Position numbers and translations under genes: made by a program
DNA from: Aquificota bacterium
Lineage (GTDB): Bacteria > Aquificota > Aquificia > Aquificales > Aquificaceae
DNA length: 44,397 nt
NCBI GenBank assembly: GCA_030950545.1
Contig: JAUZRJ010000081.1
Coordinates: 1 to 44,397 of the forward strand
Direction of reading: 5' to 3'
Part shown: positions 4,746 to 7,843 of the stretch, piece by piece
Layout of the letters: every line of letters starts with the position of its first letter
Numbering within the stretch: position 1 is the stretch's first letter
Notes under the pieces: model-generated
Databases searched by the model: none
What the model was told of the DNA's origin: nothing
The model's input: only the letters and a program-made list of their open reading frames with translations

Positions 4746-5510
4746 ATGGGGTTTTCAGGTTTGGTTTTAGGTTTTATATTTTTGAGTTTGATGTTTTTAG
4801 AGAGCTGTGGTGTGAAAAAACCGCCAAAACCACCTCCTTATCCTGAGTTTCAGGTTAAGAGAATAGGCGATCTCGTTTACGTGATCCCGAAAGGTAGAGA
4901 AGTTGTGGTTAAGGGTTTCGTGAAAGGAGAAGGATTCTGGTACAGGAAGGAAGAAGGAAGGTTCTGTTTTAAAGTCTCACACAGGAGGGGCAGATCGGTT
5001 CTGAGCTGTGTTGAGGGCAAGGTGACGGGCAAGCCCGAGGTTGAGGTCAGGGTTCTGGAGGACAGAGTGGTGATACGGGCAAGGGGGTTTGAGGGTTACA
5101 GGGTGTATCCGGTGATGGATGAGCTTATACCGATAGAGGTAGCCAGGTTCCGGAATGAGACCACCCTGAGGAGGGAACACACCCTGAGAAGATACGGGAT
5201 CACAGGAGTTGTACGGGGTGCGGAGACGGAGCCTGTAATAGTTGAGGTTCCTCCCCTGGAGCCTCCGGTCCCTGATCCTCCTGAAGATCTCAGCTACACC
5301 GTCAGAGGAAACAGAATAGTTATCTTCTGGAGGTGGGAGGAGGGTGTGAGCTACCTTGTCTACAGAGGGGATAAACTACTCACGGAAAAGCCTATAAAGA
5401 CAAACGTCTTCGTGGACGACCTCCCGCCAAGGGTGACCGTTTACAGGGTTGTTGCTGTGAACAGATTCGGGAAGAGAAGCAGACCCGCGGTTATAGTTTA
5501 CAGGCCGTAA
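4746..5510 (+). CDS. Predicted lipoprotein with fibronectin type III-like domain
   Basis: Hydrophobic N-term followed by LMFLESCG (lipobox-like), proline-rich linker, then PPEDLSYTVRGNRIVIFWRW...YRVVAVNRFGKRS, typical of Fn3. Confidence 0.75.
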   Translation: MGFSGLVLGFIFLSLMFLESCGVKKPPKPPPYPEFQVKRIGDLVYVIPKGREVVVKGFVKGEGFWYRKEEGRFCFKVSHRRGRSVLSCVEGKVTGKPEVEVRVLEDRVVIRARGFEGYRVYPVMDELIPIEVARFRNETTLRREHTLRRYGITGVVRGAETEPVIVEVPPLEPPVPDPPEDLSYTVRGNRIVIFWRWEEGVSYLVYRGDKLLTEKPIKTNVFVDDLPPRVTVYRVVAVNRFGKRSRPAVIVYRP

Positions 5511-6931
5511 TGGGCAGCTATCGCGGCGGATATGGCGAGGACCATATCCTCCTTATCTATCTCACCCTCCACCTCAAAGTCGTACTCGCCCCTCCGCAGT
5601 TTCTCCTCCAGAAACCTGACCCCGAAGTCCCCCTTCATGAAATCCGGGTCCCTGACTATCTCCCTGTAGAGGGGTATATTGGTGGGTATACCCCTTATGA
5701 TGAACTCGTCTATGGCACGTCTCGCCCTGGCGACCGCCTTTTCCCAGGTAAGGGCCCAGACTGTCATCTTGGCTATGAGTGAGTCGTAGTAGGGGGGTAT
5801 TATGTAGTCCTTGTAGACGCTCGCGTCTATCCTGACACCAGGCCCTCCGGGGGAGTAGTAGGCGGTTATCTTGCCCGGTGAGGGAGCGAAGTTCTTCTTC
5901 GGGTCCTCCGCGTTTATCCTGAACTCTATGGCGTAACCCCTGAAGGTTATATCGCTCTGGAGATAGGGAAGGGGTTCTCCCGCAGCTATCCTTATCATCA
6001 TCTCCACTATGTCCACACCCGTTATCGTCTCGGTTATGGTGTGCTCGACCTGAAGCCTCGTGTTCATCTCTATGAAGTAAAACTCCTTACTTTCCCTGTC
6101 CACGAGAAACTCAAGGGTCCCCGCGTTCTCGTAGCCCACCTTCATGAGCGCCTTAACCGCACTCCCCAGTATCCTCATCCTGAGCTCCTGGTCCAGGGCG
6201 GGCGACGGGGCTATCTCTATGAGCTTCTGGTGCCTCCTCTGGATCGAGCAGTCCCTCTCCCCGAGGTGTATTATGTTCCCGTATCTGTCTCCGAGGACCT
6301 GAACCTCTATGTGCTTGGGGTTGTCAAGATACCTCTCTATGAAGAGGTCTCCCTTCCCGAAGAAGGTCTCCGCCTCCCTGAAGGCGGACTCGAAGGACCT
6401 CTCGAGCTCTTCCTCCGATCTTACGACCCTCATACCCCTACCGCCCCCTCCGTAGGCGGCTTTCAGCATGAGGGGGAAGCCTATCTCCTTAGCAGCATGT
6501 TTTGCGTCCTCAAGAGACTTGACGGGTTCATCGGCTCCGGGAACTACGGGGAGACCCGCCTCCTTCATTATCCTCTTAGCCTTCACCTTGTCACCGAACA
6601 TCTCTATCTGTTCAGGTGTCGGACCTATGAAGACTATCCCCCTCTTCCTGCAGTATCTTGCGAAGTCCGCGTTCTCCGCCAGGAAGCCGTAACCGGGGTG
6701 TATCGCCTCCGCACCCACCTGGCGGGCGAGGTCCACTATCCTGACGTAGTCAAGGTAAGCCCTCACAGGGTCTCCGGGTATGAGGTAAGCTTCGTCCGCC
6801 TTCTTCACGTAGAGGGCCTTTACATCCGCCTCCGAGTATACCGCTACCGTTCTTATACCGAGCTCCTTGCAGGCCCTTATTATCCTGAGGGCCACTTCTC
6901 CCCTGTTGGCGACGAGAACCTTCTTGAACAT
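5498..6931 (-). CDS. Biotin carboxylase subunit (pyruvate carboxylase subunit A / 2-oxoglutarate carboxylase small subunit type)
   Basis: MFKKVLVANRGEVALRIIRACKELGI, HPGYGFLAEN, AAYGGGGRGMRVV, ERDCSIQRRHQK, EMNTRLQVEHTITE. Start set to MFKKV (6931). Confidence 0.93.
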   Translation of the reverse strand: MFKKVLVANRGEVALRIIRACKELGIRTVAVYSEADVKALYVKKADEAYLIPGDPVRAYLDYVRIVDLARQVGAEAIHPGYGFLAENADFARYCRKRGIVFIGPTPEQIEMFGDKVKAKRIMKEAGLPVVPGADEPVKSLEDAKHAAKEIGFPLMLKAAYGGGGRGMRVVRSEEELERSFESAFREAETFFGKGDLFIERYLDNPKHIEVQVLGDRYGNIIHLGERDCSIQRRHQKLIEIAPSPALDQELRMRILGSAVKALMKVGYENAGTLEFLVDRESKEFYFIEMNTRLQVEHTITETITGVDIVEMMIRIAAGEPLPYLQSDITFRGYAIEFRINAEDPKKNFAPSPGKITAYYSPGGPGVRIDASVYKDYIIPPYYDSLIAKMTVWALTWEKAVARARRAIDEFIIRGIPTNIPLYREIVRDPDFMKGDFGVRFLEEKLRRGEYDFEVEGEIDKEDMVLAISAAIAAHYGL

Positions 6932-6947
6932 AAGGAAAATATTAGCA

Positions 6948-7069
6948 TCACTGGGCACAGCAGGAGAGCCTGGAGATATCCTTCCTGAAGCTCTGTGCCC
7001 AGAGCTTTACGCACTCGGAGAAGGTCGGGTAAACGTCCACAGTGTCTATTATGTCCGCGAGTGTTAAAC
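6948..7069 (-). pseudogene. C-terminal fragment of mercuric reductase (merA remnant)
   Basis: Manual translation: ..VECLTLADIIDTVDVYPTFSECVKLWAQSFRKDISRLSCCAQ*. It resembles the MerA C-terminus (..TVDDIIDTVHxxPTxSEaiKlaAQSFxRDxSKLSCC), including the terminal CC pair. No upstream MerA domains are present. Confidence 0.75.
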
Positions 7070-7105
7070 ATTCCACCCGACTGGAAGGCAAGTATCTTTT
7101 TACAG

Positions 7106-7843
7106 GTGAGGAGGCTGAAGAAGGAGCTCGGACAGCACATACTCGTATCGGGCGGAGTTCTAAGGAGGCTGGTAGAGTTCCTGGAGGTGTCCGAGGGGGA
7201 CACCGTGGTCGAGGTAGGGGGCGGGACGGGAAACCTCACGAGGGAGCTTCTCAGAACCCGCCTCGGGAGACTCGTAACCCTGGAAGTTGATGGTGATATG
7301 GTTAAGGAGCTGAGGAAGATAGAAGACAACAGGCTCACCGTTCTGGAGGCGGACGCCACCGCCTTTGACCTCTGCTCCCTGGGAGAGAACGTCAAGGTCA
7401 TAGGCAACCTGCCCTACAACGTGGCGTCCCTGATACTGGAGAACACGGTAAGGTGCAGGTCGTGTGTCCCCCTTGCCATCTTCACCTTCCAGAAAGAGGT
7501 AGCCCTCAAGCTGACAGGGAAGACAGAACCCGGCTGGCTTACCCTCTTTGTCCACACCTTCTACAGGGTAGAGTACATGATGAGCATCCCTCCCAAGTTC
7601 TTCTTTCCGAAGCCGAGGGTCGAGTCCGGGGTTGTGAGACTGAGAAGACGGGAGGATGCGGGTGTCGGGGATTTGATCTCGTACAAGAGATTCCTGACGA
7701 GGGTCTTCTCAGGCAAAAAGAAAAAGATCAAGAACCTTATACCCCAGGACATTGTAAACCGTGCGGGGATAGACCCGGACCTCAGACCTCACCAGCTATC
7801 CCTAGAGGAGATCCTGAGGCTGTATAATGTTCTTGAGCGATGA
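7106..7843 (+). CDS. rsmA: 16S rRNA dimethyladenosine transferase RsmA/KsgA (GTG start)
   Basis: RRLKKELGQHILVSGGVLRRLV, VVEVGGGTGNLT, VIGNLPYNVAS, FQKEVALKL, FFFPKPRVESGVVRL. The ORF-track start at 6995 runs through the merA-remnant region. Confidence 0.93.
   Translation: MRRLKKELGQHILVSGGVLRRLVEFLEVSEGDTVVEVGGGTGNLTRELLRTRLGRLVTLEVDGDMVKELRKIEDNRLTVLEADATAFDLCSLGENVKVIGNLPYNVASLILENTVRCRSCVPLAIFTFQKEVALKLTGKTEPGWLTLFVHTFYRVEYMMSIPPKFFFPKPRVESGVVRLRRREDAGVGDLISYKRFLTRVFSGKKKKIKNLIPQDIVNRAGIDPDLRPHQLSLEEILRLYNVLER

Follow-up and report, generated by a model that had tools for sequence, protein, structure and literature searches.

Both ends of a chromosomal mercury-resistance operon at a probable deletion scar between rsmA and accC in an Aquificaceae genome

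Introduction

Thermophilic Aquificales possess a chromosomal merT-merP-merA cluster, and their mer operons have been described as devoid of regulatory genes (Boyd and Barkay 2012, PMC3466566); the Aquificaceae hold a central place in discussions of how mercury detoxification originated (PMC3466566, PMC8261052). The locus analyzed here differs from these operons in its apparent reduction to a scar, and also in that the intact operons of its sister genomes include a CsoR-family gene (PF02583). It is alike to the deletion scars and truncated pseudogenes of streamlined bacterial genomes, where the two ends of a lost segment are likewise joined at a short shared sequence; there is no essential difference from them, and what is unusual here is that both ends can be recognized.

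We analyzed a 44,397-nt stretch of DNA (contig JAUZRJ010000081.1, referred to as the window) from a draft genome of an Aquificota bacterium (G000; 1.53 Mb in 163 contigs, 99.66% complete). The feature lies between accC (biotin carboxylase; positions 5498–6931, minus strand; 93–94% identical to its orthologs in the sister genomes G002 and G011), which forms its right-hand boundary in the reading direction, and rsmA (16S rRNA dimethyladenosine transferase with a GTG start; 7106–7843, plus strand), which forms the other boundary. With a probability of roughly 0.93, we interpret it as the scar of an internal deletion in a chromosomal mer operon that kept both operon ends.

Results

The minus-strand peptide noticed in the preliminary description read exactly as given there: the last 39 codons of merA, LTLADIIDTVDVYPTFSECVKLWAQSFRKDISRLSCCAQ, occupied positions 6951–7067 as a pseudogene fragment with an intact vicinal Cys pair, followed by the TGA stop codon at 6948–6950. 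The peptide had been assigned to MerA over 40 residues, 39 of which indeed belong to merA while its leading C came from promoter sequence. Its identification as a MerA C-terminus with the vicinal Cys pair was borne out by a match to positions 427–464 of the TIGR02053 profile (E = 2.4e-12), the score of which, 46.6 bits over 38 of 465 positions, falls below the curated cut-off for MerA of 454.45 bits. A Pfam search with the 40-mer gave no match, the MerA match appearing in NCBIfam. The tail also matched the solved mercuric reductases 4ywo (3.1e-8), 5x1y and 1zk7, and shared 62–79% identity with 18 MerA C-termini from related genomes, reaching 74% with G002 merA at the same locus and 79% with G011 merA; the vicinal Cys pair of the ...RLSCCAQ end aligned with these 18 tails. 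A chance match can be regarded as excluded.

The C-terminal 39 residues and the vicinal Cys pair are common to the remnant and to MerA as defined by TIGR02053, intact copies of which occur in two congeners, G002 and G011. In the intact enzyme, this Cys pair hands Hg(II) to the active site. In contrast to intact MerA, the remnant is missing the N-terminal HMA domain, the FAD/NADPH domains and the redox Cys motif, and has kept hardly anything of the dimerization domain; the part of merA for the FAD/NAD(P)H domains and the redox-active Cys motif was not found in the rest of G000 either, where a search with the G002 operon DNA found the tail and weak noise only. Because these domains are missing, the remnant cannot be an enzyme. 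Its frame contained neither a stop nor a frameshift, and a Cys residue invariant in 18 of 18 related MerAs was replaced by Trp. The tail also carries a perfect palindrome, AAGCTCTG-ggca-CAGAGCTT (6986–7009), which is the same in G002 merA and is probably a consequence of the codons for KL(C/W)AQSF.

An intact counterpart was present at the same locus of G002, where the genes between rsmA and accC encode, in order, a MerT-like protein, an outer-membrane-like ORF, an HMA protein, CsoR, MerT, MerP and MerA. This merA scored 510.7 bits against the TIGR02053 cut-off of 454.45 and ended on contig C31, with 16 bp separating it from the accC ortholog (93% identical). Of the merA loci compared, only those of the window and G002 share the sequence that follows the last merA codon, TGATGCTAATAT. 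G002 rsmA is located on another contig, C71, where the promoter and the divergent MerT-like gene precede it; an overlap of 112/115 bp within this latter gene links the ends of C71 and C31, so that rsmA, the mer operon and accC form one locus, the continuity of which rests on this overlap rather than on a single contig. In G008, genes for the MerT-like, outer-membrane-like, HMA, YHS and CsoR proteins lie beside rsmA and then run into the contig end, representing the 5′ half of the operon. The earlier suggestion that the lineage or its neighbors carried mercury reductase at this locus agrees with the intact merA of G002 and with the 5′ half of the operon in G008. The nearest sister, G011, has a 22-bp accC/rsmA gap without mer at the site and carries its mer modules elsewhere, the 5′ module beside a lepA-looking gene (C109) and csoR-merT-merP-merA on C64. 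In most other members of the genus in which accC and rsmA share a contig, the two genes are divergent and lie 19–40 bp apart, with no mer genes there.

The other end of the operon was found directly upstream of the tail. Positions 7065–7105 on the minus strand, adjoining the rsmA start codon, were identical at 38 of 41 positions to the G008 sequence that separates rsmA from the MerT-like gene and also matched G002, identifying them by sequence comparison as the 5′ stub (promoter/operator region) of the mer operon. None of 5000 shuffles matched as well as the 41-bp stub, and a separate search of G000 with the G008 operon DNA matched 7065–7102 (95%, E = 1.6e-9), with weak matches only elsewhere. 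The stub contains a decayed dyad, CCTTCCA-GTCGGG-TGGAATG (7069–7088, minus strand), which by comparison appears MerR/CueR-like; the CCTTCCA-N6-TGGAAGG form is perfect in G002, G008 and, at its other locus, G011, and one arm is mutated in the window (TGGAATG). A genome-wide pattern search with a spacing slightly off that of the operator dyad gave matches no better than the control and carries no information on a regulon. Promoter-like elements span 7061–7091 on the same strand, with a −35 TTGCCT (7091–7086), a 19-bp spacer and a −10 TAACAC (7066–7061). The counterpart of the latter is TAAGTT in G002 and TAGGTT in G008, its TAACAC form in the window being disrupted by the junction, and a consensus scan called no σ70 promoter at 7061–7091. 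By eye, the 19-bp spacer and the inverted repeat were seen in G002, G008 and G011 as well; we take TTGCCT, this spacer and the dyad together to resemble CueR/MerR promoters.

Promoter stub and merA tail meet at GTTTAA (7064–7069, minus strand), which forms the promoter end and the TTA of which encodes the first Leu of the merA part; it is a probable microhomology, within which the exact breakpoint is not resolvable. The similarity to MerA does end abruptly upstream, as the preliminary description had noted, the reason being that at this point the tail joins the 5′ end of the operon to which it belonged. By the same token, the view of the peptide as the last trace of a deleted merA needs widening: an intact merA does stand at this locus in G002, but the operon promoter survives beside the tail, indicating that the whole operon was lost and not merA alone.

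No second, intact merA was found in G000. When all of G000 was screened with TIGR02053, the tail was recovered with 42.1 bits, and none of the proteins exceeded the cut-off. A MerT query that matched in G002, G006, G011 and G016 found nothing in G000, merT and merP linked to merA were absent from it, and searches for other mer DNA with the G002 and G008 operons gave the two stubs plus weak noise only. The best full-length TIGR02053 match in G000 (C122) was considered as MerA and rejected as a lipoamide dehydrogenase (TIGR01350 421.6 bits vs MerA 304.8 bits).

A tree built from RsmA, SpeE, AccC and RpsF grouped G000 with G011 (98/97) and G002 with G008 (86/80), all four forming one clade (100/100). 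The simplest history would have mer arriving at this site in the common ancestor of all four genomes, with a scarring loss in G000 and a loss or translocation in G011. Counting against the interpretation as a deletion scar, the lack of mer at the G011 site requires that either this second loss or translocation, or separate insertions, be assumed; that mer entered this site more than once independently is possible.

Discussion

The scar can be explained by the following course of events. A common ancestor of G000, G002 and G008 would have carried the mer operon between the divergent rsmA and accC genes, reading toward accC. In the G000 lineage, ~3.8 kb (in G002 coordinates), starting immediately behind the mer promoter and reaching the 39th codon counted back from the merA end, would then have been lost, presumably in a single event and probably through recombination at the short TTTA/TTAA microhomology, so that the promoter/operator stub now continues directly into the final 39 codons of merA (117 coding bases). 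Most likely, the remnant has no function and is drifting, and we judged it to be decaying because the invariant Cys is now Trp, one dyad arm is mutated and the −10 element now reads TAACAC.

One alternative, which is very improbable, is that the promoter/operator stub was captured as the transcription start of the housekeeping gene accC after the operon was lost; if so, carbon metabolism would at one time have been under the control of a mercury-responsive signal, or would be so, weakly, even now. We consider it similarly improbable that the remnant as it stands has been put to use, either by the mer promoter driving accC or as a 47-residue metal-binding peptide ending in Cys-Cys-Ala-Gln. The orientation of both stub and tail toward accC, an open frame with a TTG at 7091, the intact Cys-Cys pair and the uninterrupted 39-codon frame are all consistent with such use. 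However, the junction interrupts the −10 element and no σ70-type promoter was called, the TTG start falls inside the −35 element, and an otherwise invariant Cys has become Trp; pN/pS over the 39 codons cannot decide, as it mostly reflects pre-deletion history and is uninformative on the time after the deletion. Both promoter capture at accC and a Cys-Cys mini-peptide are possible but unsupported.

An assembly or binning artefact, with the whole operon present but skipped by the assembler or with unrelated ends joined, would fit the fragmentation of the G000 draft and the interruption of sister-genome contigs at or close to mer genes (C71/C31 in G002, C34 in G008), but it is very improbable: the two pieces share ~4–6 bases at the junction, far below an assembly k-mer, each end has its own substitutions relative to G002 and G008, and G000 contains no further mer sequence. 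Insertion of a short merA fragment with no operon deletion, for which the empty site in G011 and in most outgroups that have accC and rsmA on a single contig could be cited, is the least probable of all, being in contradiction to the matches of the two ends with G002 and G008, with both outer operon ends in the right order and orientation and the post-stop sequence as in G002.

Read as a deletion scar, the locus indicates that a heat-loving bacterium once had mercury-resistance genes at this position and has since lost almost all of them, providing direct sequence evidence for mer loss in the Aquificaceae. A scar with two ends separates loss from never having been present, which presence/absence trees alone cannot do. 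Loss of mer and truncated genes are commonplace, and this is ordinary gene loss, if unusually well documented.

The intact sister operons with their CsoR-family gene are of wider interest than the scar. A gene for a CsoR/RcnR-family repressor (PF02583, 1.4e-26 in G002; L069:1132-1422) directly precedes merT-merP-merA, and csoR homologs were found in the same position in G003, G006, G007, G011, G016 and G022. In G008, a CsoR-box-like palindrome, TTTACCCATACCCCCTATGGGTATAATG (L081:636-665), is located upstream of a YHS/TRASH ORF and csoR. A second mer-like module, consisting of the MerT-like protein, a 221-aa outer-membrane-like protein without a Pfam hit and the HMA protein under the CCTTCCA-N6-TGGAAGG dyad, occurs in G008 (L081:683-2013), G002 (L069:1-1083 and L079:1-356) and G011 (L212:2096-3432), where it is separate from merTPA. 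Finally, the housekeeping gene accC starts 16 bp after merA in G002 (L069:2101-5122), and, judging from this spacing, may be transcribed there within the mercury-resistance unit.
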